Part shown: positions 1 to 9,391 of the stretch, piece after piece
Numbering within the stretch: the stretch's first letter is position 1
How the letters are laid out: every line of letters starts with the position of its first letter
NCBI GenBank assembly: GCA_021804525.1
Contig: JAJZHJ010000027.1
Coordinates: forward strand, 1 to 9,391
Reading direction: 5' to 3'
Length of the DNA: 9,391 bases
Source of the DNA: Bacteroidota bacterium
GTDB taxonomy: Bacteria; Bacteroidota; Bacteroidia; Bacteroidales; Paludibacteraceae
Translations under genes and position numbers: made by a program
The notes under the pieces: model-generated
What the model was told of the DNA's origin: nothing
Databases searched by the model: none
What the model saw: only the letters and a program-made list of their open reading frames with translations

Positions 1-1794
1 CGTGGTGTAGGTTCACGCATCAACGATCCTTCTGTGGGCTTGTATGTCGATAATGTGCCTTATTTTAATAAATCAACCTTTGTTTTTGATTTCAACGATG
101 TGGAACGTGTCGAAATATTGCGCGGGCCTCAAGGTACTTTGTACGGACGCAACACGATGGGCGGATTAATCAACGTCATCACACGCATGCCTTCGTTTCA
201 ACCTTCGACCGACTTTACGATCGACGCAGGAAATTATAATCTTCAACGTTACAGCCTTTCTATAGATCAGCCACTGATTGATCATAAATTGGCGATGCTG
301 GTGTCGGGAGATTACACAAATCACAACGGATATTACATCAATCATTTCAACAACTCGAAAGTGGGCAGCGACGAAACCATGAACGGGATGCTCAAATTGC
401 GTTATACACCGACGGACAATTTTTCGTTGTTGTATAAATTGAGCGGTGATAAAAGTGATGAAAATGGCTATCCCTATGGCGTGATTGATTCCACAGGCAA
501 GGCGTATGTCAACTATAATCACCCAAGTTTCTACCGCAGGAGATTTTTTGACAATAGTTTAACTGCTACATATAGTAAAAACGACGTAGTATTAACTTCT
601 GCTACCAGTTTTCAGTACATGAATGATGATCAAGATATTGACCAGGATTTTTCACCGGCTGATATTTATACGGTAACTCAATTGACCACTCAACATTCGT
701 ATTCGCAAGAATTCAGAGCAGATGTGACCAAATGGAAAAATTGGACGTTGACCGGAGGTGTTTTTGGATTCAGGCAAAGTGTCGATGGTACTATCAATTT
801 GCGAAGCGGGTTGATGCCTTCTATTAACTATGACAAAATGAGCACGCAAACCAATGAAGGTGTTGCCGGATATGGACAAGCAACGCTCAATTCGTTGCTT
901 CATTTTATTGATGTGACGTTTGGCCTTCGTTATGATTATGAACATAATGGAGTTGATTATCTCTATGTTTTGCGGGGGACATCGACGCCAGTTGTTGCAA
1001 TGGATACTTTATATAAAGGCAACTTCTCGCAATGGACTCCTAAAATTGCCTTGCGTTTTAAAACAGGACGTGAGACGTCTATTTATGCCACATGGTCGAA
1101 AGGCTATAGAGGTGGCGGATTTAACTTTGGTGCAGCGCGTCCTCAAGATCTGTATTACAAACCTGAATATTCGTACAATTACGAAGTCGGATTCAAAGGT
1201 TCGTTTTGGGATGGAAAGCTGACTACCAATGCTGACTTGTTTTATATCGACTGGCGTTCGCAACAAGTAAGCGAACGAGCTATTGTCGGCAACGGGAACA
1301 TTTATCAAAATGCCGGGAAAACTTTCTCAAAAGGTGCGGAAGCTGAAGTTGTTTATCATCCGATTGATGAAATCACGTTTGGCGGAAGTGCCGGTATAAC
1401 TCAAGCTAAATATCTGTTTTTTCAACCCAACCCTGCACAATCGCTTAATTATGGTGGTAACCACTTGCCGTTTGTACCACTTTCAACCTACAGTGTTTAT
1501 ACCCAACTTCGTTTGCCGATTCACAACTCTTTTGTGAAAGCGATCAGCTTAAATGCTTCTTACAATGGCGTTGGAAAAATTTATTGGGACGATGCCAATA
1601 CACATGCAGATCCTGCCTATCAGTTGCTCGACGGTTCCATCTCTTTTGAAGGAGTGTGGGGCGATATCTCGATTTGGAGTAAGAATCTTGCCAACACATC
1701 TTATCATGCTTATGTATTTCAGTTTGGAAGTAATTGGTATGGTCAACAAGGAACTCCAACCACGTTTGGTATTTCGTTTCATAAACGTTTCTAA
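1..1794 (+). CDS. TonB-dependent outer-membrane receptor, siderophore/porphyrin type (5' partial)
   Basis: The reading frame is open from base 1, so the signal peptide, any TonB box and the first part of the plug lie upstream; 597 residues are visible. The visible start is plug domain (RGVGSRINDPSVGLYVD), followed at about residues 40-55 by LRGPQGTLYGRNTMGG, the conserved end of TonB plugs. The rest has the aromatic-rich alternating character of a 22-strand beta barrel, with landmarks such as YATWSKGYRGGGFN and GNHLPFVPLSTYS. It ends in Phe after TTFGISFHKR, as expected for an outer-membrane insertion signal. From memory, the plug and barrel landmarks resemble the yersiniabactin/pyochelin receptor group (FyuA-like) more than SusC, which is longer. 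Such receptors import iron chelates, cobalamin or heme with energy from TonB-ExbBD. The ligand cannot be read from sequence; the permease, hemN and hemG downstream point to an iron chelate or porphyrin. A GTG at 34 is only an internal codon. Confidence 0.95.
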   Translation, partial: RGVGSRINDPSVGLYVDNVPYFNKSTFVFDFNDVERVEILRGPQGTLYGRNTMGGLINVITRMPSFQPSTDFTIDAGNYNLQRYSLSIDQPLIDHKLAMLVSGDYTNHNGYYINHFNNSKVGSDETMNGMLKLRYTPTDNFSLLYKLSGDKSDENGYPYGVIDSTGKAYVNYNHPSFYRRRFFDNSLTATYSKNDVVLTSATSFQYMNDDQDIDQDFSPADIYTVTQLTTQHSYSQEFRADVTKWKNWTLTGGVFGFRQSVDGTINLRSGLMPSINYDKMSTQTNEGVAGYGQATLNSLLHFIDVTFGLRYDYEHNGVDYLYVLRGTSTPVVAMDTLYKGNFSQWTPKIALRFKTGRETSIYATWSKGYRGGGFNFGAARPQDLYYKPEYSYNYEVGFKGSFWDGKLTTNADLFYIDWRSQQVSERAIVGNGNIYQNAGKTFSKGAEAEVVYHPIDEITFGGSAGITQAKYLFFQPNPAQSLNYGGNHLPFVPLSTYSVYTQLRLPIHNSFVKAISLNASYNGVGKIYWDDANTHADPAYQLLDGSISFEGVWGDISIWSKNLANTSYHAYVFQFGSNWYGQQGTPTTFGISFHKRF

Positions 1795-1820
1795 AGGCAT
1801 GGCATGATCGACATGCGATT

Positions 1821-1845
1821 GAAAATCGAATATTCGTTGATTTTT
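1821..1845 (+). terminator. Weak hairpin after the receptor gene, possible terminator
   Basis: AAAATCGA (1822-1829) can pair with TTGATTTT (1837-1844) using one G-U pair, around a 7-base loop. The G at 1821 can also pair with the T at 1845. The stem is AT-rich and lacks a proper T-tract, so termination would be partial at best. It lies in the 150-bp gap (1795-1944) between receptor and permease. A second small palindrome, GCATG/CATGC at 1802-1816, lies just upstream. Nothing else convincing was found in the gap, so it stays open whether the receptor is co-transcribed with the permease. Confidence 0.22.
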
Positions 1846-1944
1846 CATACCTTTATATCCCTTTTCAAACGAAGAGAATATTCTATCAACTGGTTGATGA
1901 ACATTCATTAAGCTCAATTTTATTTCCTTATTTTTGTTGCATAC

Positions 1945-3171
1945 ATGACACCGATCAAAAAATATTCAACGCTATTCTCGCTTTATATTGCGCAATCGGT
2001 GCCGATGAGTTTTTTTTCAACGGTCTTGCCCATCATTATGCGGATGGAGCATTTTTCGCTGACCAATATTGCTTTACTGCAACTGATGAAACTTCCTTGG
2101 ATACTGAAATTCTTCTGGGCGCCTTTTGTTGACAAACATAGTTCGTCGCATTTGCACTACAAGAAATGGATCATCGGCTCGGAACTGATGTATGCAGTGA
2201 CGATTTTTGTCCTTGCTTTTTTCAACCTTCATTTCAACTTTCACCTCATGGTCATCCTCATGGTTTTGGCAATTGCCTTTTCGGCGACACAAGACATTGC
2301 TTCGGATGCGTTGGCCATTCGGATGTTGAAAAAAGAAGAACGCGCTTATGGCAACAGCATGCAATCGTTTGGTAATTTTGGTGGTACTTTATTGGGTAGT
2401 GGGGTGTTGTTGTTGCTCTATGCTGTAACAGGATGGTCGTGGGTAATGATTGCACTGGGTGGCTTTGTGTTGATTGCGCTCATTCCGCTATCACTTTTTG
2501 TCAATAAAAGAAACGCCGCTGAAATTGCTCCCGTGCAGGCCGGCATTAAGTATAGCGATTTGTTTCGTTTCTTCAAACTGCCAGGTATTGGCAAACAAAC
2601 CCTTTTACTTGTAGTTTATTATGGTGGGATTCTCGGAATTCTTTCTTTGTTAAAACCATATTTGGTTGATTTGGGATATGGCTTAAAAGAAATCGCATTC
2701 ATGGTTGGTGTTTTTGGCACTGCTTGTGGTGCTGCAGGGGCTTTACTGGGTGGCTTTATCTTAAAAAGAATTGGAAACAGGCGGGGTCTACGTCTCTTTG
2801 CAATGTTCAACGTCGTAGCTGCTGCATTTTTTATTTTGATTGGGCATAATGCTTCCATATATTTGCTTTATGTCGGCATTGCGCTTTTATGGATTGCATA
2901 CGCGCTGTCATCCGTTGTCATTTATACCATTTCTATGGAGAAAGTACGATCAGGAAAAGAAGGCACGGACTATACTCTTCAGATTGTTATCACACATCTA
3001 ATGGGAATTGTTTTTGCAATTGTTTTTGGCAAAGTAACCGATCTGTTAGGCTTTTCTTCTCTTTTCTATGTTGAAACTGCAATCGGACTTGTTGTTTTTG
3101 GAGCCGTCTTCTTTTTGTATAATGGCACACAGAAACAATTGGAACCTTTTCATTTAAAGAAAGAAATATGA
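1945..3171 (+). CDS. MFS permease, RhtX/FptX-AmpG-like, putative siderophore or porphyrin importer
   Basis: This 408-residue protein has about 12 hydrophobic segments (near residues 9-30, 41-62, 76-94, 98-116, 138-160, 164-186, 219-236, 251-274, 283-300, 303-325, 345-363 and 371-392), the standard major-facilitator layout. SATQDIASDALAIRML (113-128) matches the conserved segment shared by AmpG muropeptide permeases and the RhtX/FptX siderophore permeases. Known RhtX and FptX proteins move ferric siderophores across the inner membrane as single subunits, paired with a TonB receptor. Here the upstream neighbour is such a receptor, while the stop codon overlaps the start of hemN, so its cargo is probably linked to heme synthesis or iron. 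Import of a porphyrin precursor is an inference; muropeptide import or porphyrin export are alternatives. ATG 1945 is chosen because the first membrane helix begins at residue 9; there is no clear Shine-Dalgarno. Fold is certain, cargo is not. Confidence 0.85.
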   Translation: MTPIKKYSTLFSLYIAQSVPMSFFSTVLPIIMRMEHFSLTNIALLQLMKLPWILKFFWAPFVDKHSSSHLHYKKWIIGSELMYAVTIFVLAFFNLHFNFHLMVILMVLAIAFSATQDIASDALAIRMLKKEERAYGNSMQSFGNFGGTLLGSGVLLLLYAVTGWSWVMIALGGFVLIALIPLSLFVNKRNAAEIAPVQAGIKYSDLFRFFKLPGIGKQTLLLVVYYGGILGILSLLKPYLVDLGYGLKEIAFMVGVFGTACGAAGALLGGFILKRIGNRRGLRLFAMFNVVAAAFFILIGHNASIYLLYVGIALLWIAYALSSVVIYTISMEKVRSGKEGTDYTLQIVITHLMGIVFAIVFGKVTDLLGFSSLFYVETAIGLVVFGAVFFLYNGTQKQLEPFHLKKEI

Positions 3172-4553
3172 GCAAACTCCTTTTAGATCGTGATTTGATA
3201 AAAAAATATGATCAACCCGGACCTCGTTACACGAGTTATCCTCCTGCTAATTTCTTTCAGTCAGGGTTTAAGGTAGATTCATTCATTGATTTGCTGCAAC
3301 AATCCAATCAACAGCAGCCGCGCAATCTATCGTTCTATTTTCATGTTCCTTTTTGTCCTCAGTTGTGTAACTTTTGCGGTTGCAACAGCGAATTAATGCG
3401 TGACAAAGCGACCACAGAACGTTATTTTGAGATATTAAAAAAAGAGTTCGTGACCGTAGCTTCGCATCTCGATGCTACGCGTCCTGTTTCGCAGGTGCAT
3501 TGGGGTGGAGGAACACCAAACGCTGTTCCAATGCATTATATTGCCGACGTGATGGAGTTGATTCGTACTCATTTTGCGTTTACACCTGATGCTGAGGTTG
3601 CGATGGAATGCAATCCGGCTTATATGACGCTGGAACAAATAGATCAATTGGCTATGATGGGATTTAATCGTATTAGTCTTGGAATACAAGATTTTGATCT
3701 GAAAGTGCTTTCCATCATTCATCGAAAACCATCGAAATTGGCTATTGAAACTGTGGTGGAAGCGTTGCATAAAAATAAGATGGAGGTAAATCTTGATTTC
3801 GTGTATGGGTTACCTACTCAAACTGTCGAAAAGTTTCAGAGCACCATCGATCGTGCCATTTCGCTGAATCCTGAACGCATCGTCACTTTTTCCTATGCGC
3901 ATGTGCCATGGATTAAATCGGCACAAAAGGTGCTCGAACAACATGTGTTGCCTTCAGCTGAAGAGAAATTGTCCCTTTTTCATGTTGCCTATGAACGCTT
4001 GACGAACGCTGGTTACGATGCTATCGGTCTTGATCATTTTGCACGGCCACACGATGAAATGGCACAAGCACTTCATACGCGTACCTTGCATCGTAACTTC
4101 ATGGGATATTGCACCCGAAGCCATTCTGGGCAAGTTTATGCGTTTGGTGCTTCGTCGATCACCCAATTAGAAAACGCGTATATTCAGAACAATAAAAACA
4201 CGGATGCTTACATGGAAATTATTTCTCAACATGGTGTTGCGCCTGAGAAAGGATATCTGCTGACAGAAAACGATAAAGTGTGTCGCCTTGTCATCGAAGA
4301 GCTGATGTGCAATCAATACGTTGATTTGGATCAAATCGCGGTACAATGTGGCTTGACGTACGAGCAATTGCTTGCGATCACCACATTTTCACCTGACAGC
4401 TTGCACCAGATAGTCCATGATCATTTGGTGACCTGGTCAAATCATCAACTTACGGTTTTGCCGGCTGGCAGAATGATTTTACGTAATGTAGCCATGTTGT
4501 TCGATCCGTTATTGGATAACAATTCCACGATGCGCTATTCACGCACCGTCTAA
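3168..4553 (+). CDS. hemN: Oxygen-independent coproporphyrinogen III oxidase (radical SAM)
   Basis: HemN oxidatively decarboxylates two propionates of coproporphyrinogen III to give protoporphyrinogen IX, using S-adenosylmethionine and a 4Fe-4S cluster without oxygen, in the cytoplasm. The 461-residue length matches E. coli HemN (about 457). GPRYTSYPPA (18-27) is the HemN N-terminal signature. The cluster cysteines are C63, C67 and C70 (CPQLCNFC), followed by C72. This CxxxCxxCxC form marks true HemN; the related heme chaperone HemW has CxF instead. GGGTP (113-117) is the SAM-contact motif, SLGIQDFD lies near 170-177 and RNFMGY near 309-314. The ATG overlaps the TGA of the permease gene (ATGA at 3168-3171), a classic translational-coupling arrangement, and hemG follows after 28 bp. 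A purine-rich AAAGAAAG just upstream may help initiation. Confidence 0.96.
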   Translation: MSKLLLDRDLIKKYDQPGPRYTSYPPANFFQSGFKVDSFIDLLQQSNQQQPRNLSFYFHVPFCPQLCNFCGCNSELMRDKATTERYFEILKKEFVTVASHLDATRPVSQVHWGGGTPNAVPMHYIADVMELIRTHFAFTPDAEVAMECNPAYMTLEQIDQLAMMGFNRISLGIQDFDLKVLSIIHRKPSKLAIETVVEALHKNKMEVNLDFVYGLPTQTVEKFQSTIDRAISLNPERIVTFSYAHVPWIKSAQKVLEQHVLPSAEEKLSLFHVAYERLTNAGYDAIGLDHFARPHDEMAQALHTRTLHRNFMGYCTRSHSGQVYAFGASSITQLENAYIQNNKNTDAYMEIISQHGVAPEKGYLLTENDKVCRLVIEELMCNQYVDLDQIAVQCGLTYEQLLAITTFSPDSLHQIVHDHLVTWSNHQLTVLPAGRMILRNVAMLFDPLLDNNSTMRYSRTV

Positions 4554-4581
4554 TCAAATGTCCCATTAAAATACAGATGCT

Positions 4582-5958
4582 ATGGAACTTCAAACTGACA
4601 TTTTAATAGTTGGAGCCGGACTTACCGGACTTACCACAGCCCATTATTTACAAAAAAACAGCCGTTCCTTTTTGGTTGTTGAACAAGCAACACATGTTGG
4701 CGGCGCCATCCAAACCGGCGAAGAGAATGGATTCATCTTTGAACAAGGCCCCAGCACCGGCGTGATGAATAATGAAATCGTACGAGAGGTTTTCGACGAC
4801 ATATCTTCTTTATGTACGTTGGAATGGGCAGCAAATAACGTCAATAAACGTTTTATTCTTAAAAATAACCGTTGGCAACCGCTGCCAAGTGGAGTATTAG
4901 GTGGCATAACGACGCCATTATTCAAGTTTTCGGACAAGCTTCGTCTTTTGACAGAACCTTTTCGTAAACCGGGCACAAATCCCAACGAAACACTCGACCA
5001 ATTGGTAAAGCGACGCATGGGTAAAAGTTTTTTAGATTATGCCGTCGATCCGTTTATTCTCGGTGTTTATGCCGGCGATCCTTCTTATTTAGTGCCACGC
5101 TTTGCTTTGCCTAAATTGTATCAGTTGGAACAAAACTACGGCAGTTTTATTGGAGGTTCGGTCAAGATGCAATTAGAAAAACGAAAACTGAAAGAGAAAA
5201 AGCCACCTAAACAACCCCATCGCATCTTTTCAGCGAAAGGAGGCCTTCATAATTTGACGCACGCATTGATGCAATCGGCTGGAAAAGAGAAGTTTTTGTT
5301 AGGTATTCAGCAATTATCCCTATTACCAACCGATAATAACCATTTCAAAGCAGAAGGTATATTGCCAAATGGCGAAAAAATCCTCATTCAGGCAAATCAA
5401 ATCATTACTACCACTGGTGCATCATCGTTGCATTCATTGCTTCCTTTTGTAGAAAATCATTTATTGAACAATATCACGAATCTACATTATGCAAAAGTGG
5501 TGCAAGTCGCTGTTGGCTTTAATCATTGGCTGGGAACTCCGATTGATGGTTTCGGCGGATTAATTCCCTCAAAAGAAAACAAGCAACTTCTTGGTGTCTT
5601 GTATCCTTCGGCATTTCTTTCACATCGTGCGCCTGAAGGAGGAGCGTTGTTGTCAATCTTTCTGGGCGGTGTACGTCATCCCGAAGTATTTGATATGCCC
5701 GATAATGCCATTCGTCAACTGATCGGGATATCTCTACAGGAATGGATGGGGCTAAAATCGTTCAATCCAGACTTATTTCAAGTGTTTCGATATCAGGAAG
5801 CGATTCCGCAATATGGCGCTGACTGTGAAGCACGGTTTATCACACTCGATCGCTTGCAACAACAATTTCCATCGCTGCATATAGGAGGTAATTTGCGTGG
5901 AGGAATCGGTATGGCTGACCGAATAAAACAAGGAAAACAATTAGCCAATGAAATATAG
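4582..5958 (+). CDS. hemG: Protoporphyrinogen oxidase, FAD-dependent HemY type
   Basis: It catalyses the six-electron oxidation of protoporphyrinogen IX to protoporphyrin IX, the step after HemN. The 458-residue protein begins with a Rossmann dinucleotide motif, VGAGLTGL (10-17), followed by VVEQ with E34 expected to bind the FAD ribose, then GGAIQT (40-45) and FEQGPSTG (53-60), all typical of the HemY/PPOX amine-oxidase-like family. The C-terminal GGNLRGGIGMADRIKQG (about 438-454) is the family's second FAD-contact block. In Bacteroidota this FAD enzyme is usually labelled hemG although it is homologous to HemY, not to the flavodoxin-like HemG of E. coli. The preceding HemN argues for the protoporphyrin route; coproporphyrinogen oxidase activity (CgoX) is the alternative. 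It is the last gene of the + strand operon, ending 45 bp before a strong hairpin. No Shine-Dalgarno is evident. Confidence 0.94.
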   Translation: MELQTDILIVGAGLTGLTTAHYLQKNSRSFLVVEQATHVGGAIQTGEENGFIFEQGPSTGVMNNEIVREVFDDISSLCTLEWAANNVNKRFILKNNRWQPLPSGVLGGITTPLFKFSDKLRLLTEPFRKPGTNPNETLDQLVKRRMGKSFLDYAVDPFILGVYAGDPSYLVPRFALPKLYQLEQNYGSFIGGSVKMQLEKRKLKEKKPPKQPHRIFSAKGGLHNLTHALMQSAGKEKFLLGIQQLSLLPTDNNHFKAEGILPNGEKILIQANQIITTTGASSLHSLLPFVENHLLNNITNLHYAKVVQVAVGFNHWLGTPIDGFGGLIPSKENKQLLGVLYPSAFLSHRAPEGGALLSIFLGGVRHPEVFDMPDNAIRQLIGISLQEWMGLKSFNPDLFQVFRYQEAIPQYGADCEARFITLDRLQQQFPSLHIGGNLRGGIGMADRIKQGKQLANEI

Positions 5959-6072: not shown

Positions 6073-7359
6073 TTAAAGCCTTCCATCTACGAGTTTAGAA
6101 TCCAATACGCTTTTTACATCGTAAAGTACTCCGGTTTCCTTTAGATAGGCTGTTAGATTTAGAGTAGAAAACGATTGATGGGCTACAGCTAAAATAATAG
6201 CGTCGTATTGAGCTTTAGGGAACTCCGTAACAACATCTACCTGATAAGCATGTTGCACATCGTCGGGATTCACCCAAGGATCAAAGATCGTGACATGCAC
6301 GTTGTAGTCGTTCAATGTATGCACAATGTCGATAACCTTTGTGTTTCGCACATCAGGGCAATTTTCTTTGAATGTAAATCCCAATAGTAAAATGTTCGAA
6401 CCAACCACTTGGACACCTTTTTTCAGCATTAAACGAACAACTTGATTGGCAACATACTCTCCCATGCCATCGTTCATGCGGCGCCCTGCTAAAATAATTT
6501 CAGGATGATAGCCATACTCTTGTGCCTTTTGTGCTAAATAGTACGGATCTACTCCGATACAGTGCCCACCTACTAAACCCGGTTTGAAAGGTAAAAAATT
6601 CCATTTTGTTGCAGCGGCTTCGAGTACTGCTTGTGTGTCGATATCCATGCGGTTGAATATTTTAGCCAGTTCATTCACAAACGCAATGTTAATGTCACGT
6701 TGTGAATTTTCAATCACTTTAGCTGCTTCCGCTACACGAATGGTAGGTGCAAGATGTGTCCCTGCAATGATAACAGACCGATAGAGTGCATCGACTTTTT
6801 GTCCTGTTTCAGGCGTTGACCCCGAAGTCACTTTCTTTATTTTTTCTACTGTATGTTCTTTATCTCCCGGATTGATGCGTTCGGGGGAATACCCTGCAAA
6901 AAAGTCCTTGTTAAAAGTAAGGCCGGAGACTTTCTCAACCACAGGAACGCACTTTTCTTCAGTGACTCCGGGATAAACCGTCGATTCGTAAATCACAATT
7001 GCACCAGGTCGGATTACTTTTCCAACTGTTTCGCTTGCTTTAATTAATGGAGTCAAGTCAGGATTGTTGTGGGCATCGACAGGCGTAGGAACGGTAACAA
7101 TAAAATAATTACACCCACGAATATCTTCCAGGGAAGCTGTACAAAAAAGCCCTTTCGATCCGAAAACAGGTACTTGTGATGTCAATGCAGATTGAAGCAC
7201 TTCGCTGTCCACTTCCAACGTGGCATCTACTCCTTTCATCAGTGCCTGTACGCGTACTTGATTGACGTCGAATCCAACTACAGGGTATTTTGTTGAAAAG
7301 AGACGTGCCAGCGGAAGTCCAACATATCCTAAGCCAATGATTGCTATTTTTATTTCCAT
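6073..7359 (-). CDS. tviB: UDP-N-acetyl-D-hexosamine 6-dehydrogenase, TviB/VipA/WbpO type
   Basis: The 428-residue protein belongs to the UDP-glucose/GDP-mannose dehydrogenase family. These enzymes oxidise C6 of a nucleotide sugar to a carboxylate with two NAD+. GLGYVG (10-15 region) after IAII is the NAD-binding glycine loop. TVPTPVD (89-95), YESTVYPG (124-131) and [11 protein letters not shown] (156-166) follow. [14 protein letters not shown] (261-274) carries the catalytic cysteine C267. [14 protein letters not shown] (327-340) is the C-terminal nucleotide-sugar block. From memory, long stretches match Salmonella TviB (UDP-GlcNAc 6-dehydrogenase of Vi antigen) and Pseudomonas WbpO, which favours UDP-GlcNAc or UDP-GalNAc over UDP-glucose as substrate. 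It is the last gene of the - strand polysaccharide operon, 83 bp after the epimerase; that gap holds nothing I can identify. With the epimerase it should supply UDP-GalNAcA. The ATG at 7359 gives the expected short N-terminus before the Rossmann fold. Confidence 0.93.
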
Positions 7360-7442
7360 AATGTCAAACGATAGAATGGGTTTTAGATTTCAACATTTGT
7401 TTATTTGTTCTTCTTCAAAGAAAACAGTGTGTTGCAGATTTT

Positions 7443-8435
7443 CTACTTCAAATTCTCGTGATACCATTTAACCGCTTCACGAAGACCTTCTTTAAAGTAA
7501 AAAAGGGGTTGATAACCCAACAACTTTTGTGCTTTTTCAATGCTTGCCAAAGAATGAGGTATGTCGCCGATACGATTTGGCCCATAAATTGTATCCACTG
7601 CTGTAATAGTCGGATCGTATTCGCTTAAATAGGTTTTTAAATATTCTGTCAATTGCGTCAATGATGTTTGTTCGCCGCAAGCCGTATTGTAAACTGTATT
7701 CACAGCCTTGCTGTTTTGTGTTGATATGGCGAGTAGATTCATCAATAATACATTCTCAATGTAGGTGAAGTCCCGAGAATAACTTCCATCTCCATTGATA
7801 ATCGGAGATTGATGTTGCATCAGCTGTTTTACGAACAAAGGAATAACCGCGGCATAAGCTCCGTTCGGATCTTGGCGACGCCCGAATACATTAAAATAAC
7901 GCAATCCGATACTTTCTAACCCATATGTTGTAGCAAAAACATCGGCGTACAGTTCGTTCGCATATTTCGTAATAGCATAGGGAGATAATGGACGGCCAAT
8001 GGTTTCTTCCACTTTAGGCAATGATACAGAGTCTCCGTAAGTAGATGAACTTGCTGCATAAACGAATCGTTTTACATTTGCATCTCGAGCCGCCACGAGC
8101 ATGTTCAAAAAACCTGTCGTGTTTACTTCATGCGTTGTAATGGGGTCTTTGATAGAGCGAGGCACTGAACCTAATGCAGCTTCGTGAAATACGTAATCCA
8201 CCCCATTGATAGCTTTACGACAATCGTCAAGATTTCGGATATCGCCTACAACCAGATGGAAACGTGAATTGTTTAATAATAAAGAAGAAATGTTTTCCCA
8301 ATGGCCGGTACTGAAATTATCCAGACAAACAACTCGATGTTCTAATGACAGAAGCAATTCGCATAGGTTGCTCCCAATAAATCCGGCGCCACCAGTCACT
8401 AAAACTGTAGATGGTTGAAAATAAGGATAATTCAT
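7443..8435 (-). CDS. wbpP: UDP-N-acetylglucosamine 4-epimerase, WbpP/TviC type (SDR family)
   Basis: This extended short-chain dehydrogenase interconverts the C4 epimers of UDP-GlcNAc/UDP-GalNAc or of their uronic acids. Over 330 residues it shows TGGAGFIGSNL (14-24, NAD loop), LDNFSTGH (38-45), GDIRNLDDC (64-72), AASSSTYGD (127-135, catalytic Ser/Thr region) and YAITK (153-157, catalytic Y153 and K157). LRYFNVFGRRQDPNGAYAAV is also present. ALGSVPRSIKDP and the RRQDPNGAYAAVIP stretch are, from memory, hallmarks of WbpP and its relatives rather than of galactose-specific GalE. I place the start at ATG 8435: the frame can be extended ten codons to a TTG at 8465, but MNYPYFQPSTVLVTGG is the natural N-terminus and the extension reads as leader. 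It stands between the Wzc-like gene and tviB on one strand, the expected pairing for making UDP-GalNAcA in Vi-like or O-antigen pathways. Confidence 0.92.
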   Translation of the reverse strand: MNYPYFQPSTVLVTGGAGFIGSNLCELLLSLEHRVVCLDNFSTGHWENISSLLLNNSRFHLVVGDIRNLDDCRKAINGVDYVFHEAALGSVPRSIKDPITTHEVNTTGFLNMLVAARDANVKRFVYAASSSTYGDSVSLPKVEETIGRPLSPYAITKYANELYADVFATTYGLESIGLRYFNVFGRRQDPNGAYAAVIPLFVKQLMQHQSPIINGDGSYSRDFTYIENVLLMNLLAISTQNSKAVNTVYNTACGEQTSLTQLTEYLKTYLSEYDPTITAVDTIYGPNRIGDIPHSLASIEKAQKLLGYQPLFYFKEGLREAVKWYHENLK

Positions 8436-8485
8436 GTGTAATAATTGAAATAAATAAAATAACAATAGACAGTAACTTATTCATA

Positions 8486-8516
8486 TTAAAATAGGATGCT
8501 GCTTATTGTTAGCAAA
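8486..8516 (-). promoter_or_regulatory. Possible Bacteroidota-type promoter before wbpP
   Basis: On the - strand, TTTG (8516-8513) is followed after 19 bases by TATTTTAA (8493-8486). The Bacteroides housekeeping promoter has TTTG near -33 and TAnnTTTG near -7. The upstream box and spacing fit; the downstream box matches four of six fixed bases. Transcription would begin about 45 bases before ATG 8435. It lies in the 95-bp gap between the kinase gene and wbpP, and would give that pair transcription independent of the kinase gene. AT-rich DNA yields such matches by chance. Confidence 0.22.
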
Positions 8517-8530
8517 GTCAATAAAAATGA

Positions 8531-9391
8531 TTATTCCTGTTTCTTTTGATGATAATTCCCATATCCATAATGGTATCCATAATGGTATCCTCGACGGTAC
8601 CCATAATGTCTTTTCTCCATGTGGACATCGTTGATGACAAGATAAATAGGCTTAAGAGATCCTTCTGTCGCTAACCGATTCACAAATTCCAAGTTGCGGC
8701 GATCAGAATATTCAGCGCGACATACATACAATGTCACATCTGTCAGTCGGTGGAGTAATAAAGTATCTGAAACTGCACCAACAGGAGCTGTGTCCATTAC
8801 GACATAATCATAGTCAGACTTTAAAATTTCAAACATTTCGTCTAATCGATGACGCATAATCAATTCGTTTGGATTGGGCGGTATCATCCCCGAAGGTAAA
8901 AGATCGAGATTTGGATAGTCAGGTGTAGATAATACCAATTTATGTACATCACTTTCGAGACCAGTCAAATAGGAAGTGATACCTTCTTGGTCAGGAAGTC
9001 CAAACAGTTTCGTTAATTGTGGTTTCCGTAAATCAAGTCCCATCAATAAAACTTTTTTATCGGCCATTGAGAGAGTAATAGCTAAATTCACACTGACAAA
9101 TGTTTTTCCTTCGCCCGGTTCTGTCGAAGTCACCATCACTACTTTTTGAGTAGGATAGTCAAGCACAAACTGTAACTTTGTGCGAAGTAACCTGAGTAGT
9201 TCGGGATTTGATTCGGTGACAGCATGTTGATCTACAATTGTTTGGCCTGAAAGATTGTGCCCCAGCTCAGTCAATACGGGAACACTTGTAATGGCTTCTA
9301 CATCTTGTCGGGTATGTATAGAAGTATCAAGCAGATCGCGAATGTAAATGATCAGGATCGGAATTGCTAACCCTAAAATAAAAAATACCAG
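8531..9391 (-). CDS. Wzc-like polysaccharide co-polymerase/BY-type tyrosine kinase (5' partial, C-terminal half)
   Basis: The frame stays open to the window edge, giving 286 visible residues. A TTG at 9274 could be mistaken for a start, but the 39 residues before it read as the end of a membrane helix (about 1-17, LVFFILGLAIPILIIYI) and the RDLLDTSIHTRQDVEAIT linker typical of Wzc. The missing N-terminal part should hold the Wzz domain and first helix. The kinase has the EXXRXXR oligomerisation motif (E64, R67, R70), Walker A STEPGEGKT (89-97, K96), a Walker A' region VLLMGLDLRKP (114-124) and Walker B YVVMDTAPVG (196-205, D200). It ends in a cluster of eight tyrosines (263-280), the expected autophosphorylation tail. 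Such proteins set chain length and drive export of capsule or exopolysaccharide with the Wza/Wzx/Wzy system. Its gene is upstream of wbpP and tviB in the same direction. Glycine replaces the usual first Asp of Walker A'. Confidence 0.93.
   Translation of the reverse strand: MVFFILGLAIPILIIYIRDLLDTSIHTRQDVEAITSVPVLTELGHNLSGQTIVDQHAVTESNPELLRLLRTKLQFVLDYPTQKVVMVTSTEPGEGKTFVSVNLAITLSMADKKVLLMGLDLRKPQLTKLFGLPDQEGITSYLTGLESDVHKLVLSTPDYPNLDLLPSGMIPPNPNELIMRHRLDEMFEILKSDYDYVVMDTAPVGAVSDTLLLHRLTDVTLYVCRAEYSDRRNLEFVNRLATEGSLKPIYLVINDVHMEKRHYGYRRGYHYGYHYGYGNYHQKKQE
8562..8590 (-). repeat. 12-bp tandem repeat encoding the YGYH tail of the kinase
   Basis: The + strand unit TATCCATAATGG occurs twice exactly (8562-8573 and 8574-8585) with a further five bases to 8590. 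A degenerate copy continues toward 8608. Twelve bases are four codons, so each unit adds an in-frame Tyr-Gly-Tyr-His block to the kinase C-terminus. Gain or loss of a unit would change the tyrosine count without a frameshift. Confidence 0.85.

Follow-up and report, generated by a model that had tools for sequence, protein, structure and literature searches.

A TonB receptor and permease next to HemN as a predicted coproporphyrin(ogen) import route in Bacteroidales

Here we describe a four-gene cluster that probably imports coproporphyrinogen III or coproporphyrin III and converts it to protoporphyrin IX (PPIX). It lies in a 9,391-bp stretch of DNA (the window), which is contig C431 of the metagenome-assembled genome (MAG) G000 (2.15 Mb in 436 contigs, 78% complete); the nearest named relatives of this genome are Paludibacter MAGs, and on that ground we call the genus Paludibacter. 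The cluster encodes a TonB-dependent outer-membrane receptor, a permease of the major facilitator superfamily (MFS), the oxygen-independent coproporphyrinogen III oxidase HemN, and a protoporphyrinogen oxidase of the flavin adenine dinucleotide (FAD) type. The receptor would carry coproporphyrin(ogen) III across the outer membrane and the permease would carry it across the inner membrane, after which HemN and the FAD-type oxidase would finish the imported coproporphyrinogen III to PPIX. We regard this as the best and simplest reading because no internal supply of coproporphyrinogen III is known for HemN in a genome lacking HemE, and an importer pair adjoins it. The transported substrate, the inward direction, and the joining of the four products into one route are what we infer; the gene content and order, the HemN motif, the missing early heme genes, and the associations among genomes were read from sequence. 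The same route had been proposed in an earlier sequence-only reading of the window, and the absence of hemB, hemC, and hemE, together with a conserved gene order that tracks the absence of hemE, now lends support to it.

Results

The four genes lie in a row on the forward strand: the receptor gene at 1..1794, open at the 5′ end of the contig; the permease gene at 1945..3171; hemN at 3168..4553; and the oxidase gene, labelled HemG, at 4582..5958. The receptor gene is set slightly apart, ending 150 bp before that of the permease, and the other three are tightly packed, with a 4-bp overlap between permease and hemN and 28 bp between hemN and hemG. Open reading frames (ORFs) and family models confirmed this layout, which the sequence-only reading had described. 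The same order of receptor, permease, HemN, and HemG occurs in two other genomes of the genus, G003 and G004. All four genes are under purifying selection among the three genomes, with ratios of nonsynonymous to synonymous substitution of 0.03–0.09; the HemG comparison with G003 covers 284 residues, where the G003 contig ends.

The window HemN scored 459.4 bits with the HemN model TIGR00538 (cut-off 324.95) and 326 bits with Escherichia coli HemN (1olt). In alignment with the E. coli enzyme, it carries the radical-SAM motif CxxxCxxCxC and the conserved Tyr, Glu, Gln, and Arg residues, whose functional roles are known; the motif was present in 48 of 48 permease-linked HemN rows. Model and motif thus identify it as a predicted coproporphyrinogen III oxidase. 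The heme degradation enzyme HutW/ChuW was considered for this protein and rejected, scoring 157 bits against a cut-off of 400 and against 459 for HemN. The oxidase scored 232.3 bits with TIGR00562 (cut-off 97.85) and has the FAD-type amine-oxidase fold (Pfam PF01593), so that “HemG” is only a label here; we take it to be the type of protoporphyrinogen oxidase usually called HemY.

A profile (A1) built from five permeases was run over 393 Bacteroidales genomes together with models for HemE and HemN, at E-value limits of 1e-40 for the permease and 1e-60 for each of the two enzymes. The MFS subfamily was present in 49 genomes, representing 28 family codes. HemN was the next gene after the permease in 45 of these 49, a TonB receptor preceded the permease in 46 (two being fragments at contig ends), and HemG followed within three same-strand genes in 40. 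In 14 of the 49, ferrochelatase (HemH) was among the next five same-strand genes, and there the route would run on to heme. The three genomes scored without a receptor were G383 (contig end), G037 (a remnant, see below), and G098. The sequence-only reading had called for a check of gene-order conservation, which these counts bear out; it had also considered the arrangement unusual, and it is in fact widespread in Bacteroidales. Receptor, permease, and HemN are also linked in Dysgonomonas and in the Porphyromonas species G300, whose MFS protein (P0241) is identical to a permease named “uncultured Porphyromonas sp.”

The permease follows the absence of HemE. It was found in 42 of 46 genomes with HemN and without HemE, in 3 of 53 with both, in 4 of 289 with neither, and in none of 5 with HemE alone (odds ratio for the first two classes 175, p 1.4e-19). 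Among genomes at least 90% complete, the corresponding counts for the first two classes were 37 of 39 and 2 of 48. On a HemN tree of 109 rows, made by a quick method, 16 independent pairs differed in HemE; the permease went with HemE absence in 9, the reverse was seen in 0, and 7 were ties (p 0.0039). Among these pairs are G285, counted as having the permease, G286, counted as lacking it, and G227, represented by two HemN rows. The tree shows 13 changes of the permease label, which means that the permease has repeatedly become linked to HemN or lost that link. Of 50 genomes with HemE and HemN and no permease, 28 have HemE on the same strand as HemN and no more than 2.5 kb ahead of it; several of the remaining 22 are interrupted by contig ends. 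The importer therefore stands where the gene making HemN’s substrate would be. The general picture is that the position ahead of HemN often holds either the substrate-making HemE or a transporter for the outer and inner membranes.

A few loci depart from the common layout. In G237, receptor and permease are separated by an ORF on the opposite strand. A hemE-bearing genome, G106, has receptor, HemN, and HemG with no permease between (L268). Small DUF4491 membrane proteins occur near the cluster (L219:3072-3371 and L238:11694-11990), with their motif present at 7 of the 52 permease loci, and in L033 such a protein directly precedes HemN, the permease being absent.

We next consider the early heme genes. 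In G000 and 40 relatives, HemE, HemC, and HemB were each over cut-off in 13 of 41 genomes and ferrochelatase in 7 of 41. HemB, HemC, and HemE over cut-off and ferrochelatase were found in neither G000 (78% complete) nor G004 (98% complete), hemA and hemL not being profile-searched; G000 has a weak URO-D-like fragment only (54.6 bits). G003, the closest relative by cluster identity, has a hemA-C-D-B-L-E operon on contig C96 that ends without hemN-hemG; profiles confirmed its HemA, HemB, HemC, HemL, and HemE. In a DNA search with this contig, the first 4 kb matched contig C27 of G000 (92%) and contig C62 of G004 (88%), and the hem genes were matched in neither. C27 and C62 are collinear over 7.6 kb, where a gyrB/parE-type gene is followed directly by a gene of 766 aa, the hem genes being absent. 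The locus is gapless, so two of the three species lack the early operon at that site, and a contig gap does not account for its absence. Contamination as the source of the G003 operon is unlikely, since its flank matches the other two genomes at 92% and 88% over ∼4 kb. The lack of early genes that the sequence-only reading had proposed to look for was thus seen at the level of hemB, hemC, and hemE, with hemD present: a lone hemD/uroS lies on contig C2 of G000 (L001:1450-2208), which fits the lone uroS reported to be kept by ring-deficient Bacteroidales such as Bacteroides (PMC12670364).

Other members of the genus retain the early pathway in different arrangements. In G001, G002, and G005, hemC-D-B-L-E-N-G form one run with hemA ahead (confirmed by profile in G005; the G002 run is split over two contigs). 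This hemA-C-D-B-L-E-N-G operon shares the HemN-HemG tandem with the window; the difference is that HemE precedes HemN there, whereas receptor and permease precede it in the window. G007 has a full early operon, and its hemN-hemG pair, 76% and 79% identical to that of the window, lies far away without receptor and permease. HemC, HemB, and HemN were all not found in G006. Early genes without the importer (G007), both together (G003), and the importer without early genes (G000 and G004) form a series suggesting that the importer may have been gained before the early genes were lost. Because G003 has both, the cluster is not exclusive to auxotrophs.

The sequence-only reading had named a TonB receptor, and this family assignment stands: PF00593 and PF07715 (barrel and plug) scored above the Pfam gathering score in both the window copy and an intact homologue. 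The N-terminus of the window copy lies outside the window; the intact homologue has 698 aa (L028:3533-5629). We describe the protein as a predicted porphyrin(ogen) receptor. The heme receptor model TIGR01785 (cut-off 316.85) gave 54.5 bits for the window receptor, which lacks its N-terminus, and the intact homologue matched no heme-receptor model at E 1e-30. The siderophore receptor model TIGR01783 (cut-off 223.5 bits) gave 131.1 bits for the window copy, 148.9 for the intact homologue, and 120 and 188 for the receptors of two relatives. By sequence, the nearest solved structure for the intact homologue was the pesticin receptor 4epa (125 bits; next 49). In ∼25 of 52 permease loci (L207, L209, L217:3445-3789, L222, and others), the receptor is immediately preceded by an ORF of 110–125 aa with a single helix (MF.FGLFSTHLPY..., RPPP end). 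Six of these small ORFs were scanned and had no Pfam match; they are possibly accessory or leader proteins.

The permease belongs to MFS_1 and forms its own subfamily between RhtX/FptX and AmpG; we describe it as a predicted coproporphyrin(ogen) permease. Its closest NCBIfam models were RhtX/FptX (TIGR02718; 149.1 bits) and AmpG (TIGR00901; 132.8 bits), both far under their cut-offs of 356.15 and 350, and four relatives scored 142–173 bits with the former. RhtX/FptX permeases, which serve rhizobactin and pyochelin, are single MFS permeases that partner a TonB receptor. The window system differs from them in the low score of its permease and in having heme enzymes as neighbors; siderophore genes were not seen in the window. 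It differs also from the muropeptide permease AmpG (8zke) in score, in sequence (19% identity), and in context. A model-based fold comparison put AmpG first with many other MFS proteins within 1–3 Z, and it does not discriminate the substrate. Among the best 120 of more than 2,000 matches per search, the permease also occurs, as protein matches only, in Bacteroides helcogenes, B. pyogenes, Parabacteroides, Macellibacteroides, and Hoylesella timonensis.

Discussion

Several observations weigh against coproporphyrin(ogen) import by this cluster. The permease is present despite hemE in G003, G037, G123, and G227. In G037, the permease is intact and the receptor is a 60-residue C-terminal remnant (L100:5911-6108), 93% identical to that of the congener G154. 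G227 encodes HemN twice, in a hemC-B-L-E-N operon on C17 (L286) and again in a receptor-MFS-HemN-HemG cluster on C63 (L228). Conversely, G298, G286, and G323 have HemN and no HemE, and no permease was detected in them; with G285, they make up the four genomes of this class scored without one. In G285, a fragment of the permease lies at a contig end (L249); in G286, only 0.5 kb of contig precedes HemN; G323 has a completeness of 89% and a contamination of 8%; and the 1.6 kb visible in G298 contains no permease. All five seeds of the A1 profile were HemN-linked permeases. The window permease is itself an outlier, with 40–49% identity to those outside the genus, so the order-wide pattern reaches it by homology only. 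The window HemN, only 49–50% identical to HemN of G001, G002, and G005, groups with that of G007 and otherwise mostly with HemN from genomes that have hemE, outside the large permease-linked clade.

Clusters of receptor, permease, and HemG also count against the proposal where they occur in genomes that have neither HemN over cut-off nor HemF: G056 and G264 (L238, L239) and G181 (L229). Import there would not be of coproporphyrinogen unless another oxidase exists. HemF was considered as a replacement for HemN in these clusters and was not found in G056, G264, or G181; among 30 genomes searched, it was found only in G037 and G305, and not in G340 or G098 either. G340, a congener of G056 and G264, has HemE, and neither HemN nor HemF was found in it. 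Ten neighbor proteins of the HemN-less clusters were scanned and included no coproporphyrinogen oxidase: they were Trk potassium transporters, a glycyl-tRNA ligase, HflK, a glycoside dehydrogenase-like protein, and the FAD oxidase of the cluster itself, with three lacking a match. These three genomes may import at the level of protoporphyrin, or may have a candidate coproporphyrinogen oxidase of an unknown kind.

A further difficulty concerns the end of the route. No PF00762 ferrochelatase was found in any of the eight genomes of the genus (G000–G007), though five have HemE, HemC, and HemB. The iron-inserting step in this genus may be missing or of another, putative kind; formation of heme from PPIX without classical HemH has been reported for Bacteroides and Prevotella (PMC6460266). 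That the cluster would end at protoporphyrin, as the sequence-only reading had it, agrees with the failure to find hemH in the genome.

It is unlikely that the receptor and permease instead import heme or PPIX and that HemN and HemG are neighbors for regulatory reasons only. Heme and PPIX are reported to nourish Bacteroides and Porphyromonas (PMC13227078, PMC6460266), and the HemN-less clusters of G056, G264, and G181 fit a PPIX-level substrate in those lineages. Such an importer would be equally useful without HemN, yet the permease was found in 4 of 289 genomes lacking both HemN and HemE versus 42 of 46 with HemN and without HemE, and its constant neighbor is HemN (45 of 49), not HemH (14 of 49). 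The receptor, moreover, scored far under the heme-receptor model (54 versus 317 bits), and its intact homologue matched no such model. We consider it quite unlikely that the pair serves a siderophore or metallophore, in the manner of the pesticin/yersiniabactin receptor or FptA/FptX, bringing in an iron or zinc chelate beside fortuitous heme genes, or, in a mixed form, coproporphyrin as a metal carrier. Siderophore systems are what the two proteins most resemble, which is itself a point against coproporphyrin(ogen) import: the pesticin receptor is the best structure match by sequence and RhtX/FptX the best permease model. Both proteins missed the siderophore cut-offs, the receptor with 131 and 149 of 223.5 bits and the permease with 149 of 356, and a siderophore system gives no reason for the permease to follow the absence of hemE (9:0, 7 ties) or to precede HemN in 45 of 49 genomes.

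Two readings that leave import aside fare worse in our judgment. Very unlikely is one in which incomplete assembly alone accounts for the missing early genes and the cluster represents an ordinary split heme operon. The limited completeness of G000 does tell against coproporphyrin(ogen) import and in favor of this explanation, as does the full early operon that accompanies the cluster in G003; against it stand the gapless syntenic locus without the operon in both G000 and G004, the latter 98% complete, and the fact that a split operon leaves receptor and permease unexplained. Scarcely probable at all is that the permease exports or clears excess porphyrins from HemN and HemG. Heme-stress-responsive MFS transporters of heme or porphyrin, PefAB and HatT, are described in other bacteria (PMC12670364), but the permease is found in genomes lacking hemE, which have no internally made porphyrin to clear, and an exporter needs no TonB receptor, which adjoins the permease in 46 of 49 genomes.

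For coproporphyrin(ogen) import, the redox state of the substrate matters. Under anoxic conditions, the porphyrinogen could enter the cell still in its reduced state; import of the oxidized form would call for a reduction step that the cluster does not encode. In work by Caldwell in 1965, coproporphyrinogen, and not coproporphyrin, reportedly replaced hemin for Bacteroides ruminicola. The weakness noted in the sequence-only reading, that HemN needs the porphyrinogen, still stands, but coproporphyrin III is reported to feed Porphyromonas gingivalis (PMC6173696).

P. gingivalis offers a close published parallel. It is a heme auxotroph that is reported to keep only HemD, HemN, HemG, and HemH (PMC13227078) and, like the proposed host of the cluster, to combine late enzymes with use of coproporphyrin III, its porphyrin acquisition involving HusA-HusB and Hmu (PMC6173696, PMC13227078). 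Its growth on coproporphyrin III fits the import reading, whereas uroporphyrin III is reported not to support its growth; receptor, permease, and HemN stand together in the Porphyromonas species G300. The text consulted on this system assigns no coproporphyrin transporter. As a point on the other side, deletion of husA is reported to have impaired growth of P. gingivalis on the tested porphyrin sources, coproporphyrin III included, under iron limitation (PMC6173696), which suggests that another system takes part in that species. Cross-feeding has also been described between Sphingopyxis and Leucobacter (cited in PMC11139205 and PMC6868719), where, as in our reading of the window, coproporphyrins released by one species feed another. 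Leucobacter, unlike the window host, is Gram-positive, and its transporter is described as uncharacterized; adding coproporphyrins reportedly did not rescue another Leucobacter, strain GP (PMC6868719). Porphyrins, of which only heme is identified, are reported to reach B. thetaiotaomicron from E. coli and not from its hemA mutant (PMC4696147).

On balance, we also lean toward a broader proposal, in which an operon found across Bacteroidales (TonB receptor, MFS permease of its own subfamily, HemN, and often HemG and HemH) imports coproporphyrinogen III and so replaces HemE. Its scope would cover relatives of gut Bacteroides, Parabacteroides, Dysgonomonas, and Porphyromonas. On this view, heme “auxotrophy” would amount to a single break in the pathway, with a late precursor traded between species, and the permease would be the first transporter assigned to it. 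In the literature searched, in which subscription papers and preprints were thinly covered, we found no description of a receptor-MFS-HemN operon or of a Bacteroidales coproporphyrin importer, and no transporter-level answer to why heme-auxotrophic Bacteroidales retain HemN, HemG, and HemH while lacking the steps that feed them. An importer in HemE’s place would reduce that puzzle to one gene pair. If correct, the proposal explains why many bacteria unable to build heme keep its last enzymes, assigns a late tetrapyrrole its transporter, casts coproporphyrin(ogen) as a currency of cross-feeding among species, and provides a genomic marker for species that depend on neighbors for a half-finished cofactor.

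Remainder of the Window

The rest of the window (6073-9391, reverse strand) is an ordinary polysaccharide locus with genes for a TviB/TviC-like UDP-GlcNAc dehydrogenase and a uronate epimerase and the end of a gene for a Wzc-type tyrosine autokinase. The same dehydrogenase and epimerase genes follow hemN-hemG in G007, with one extra 755-aa gene between.

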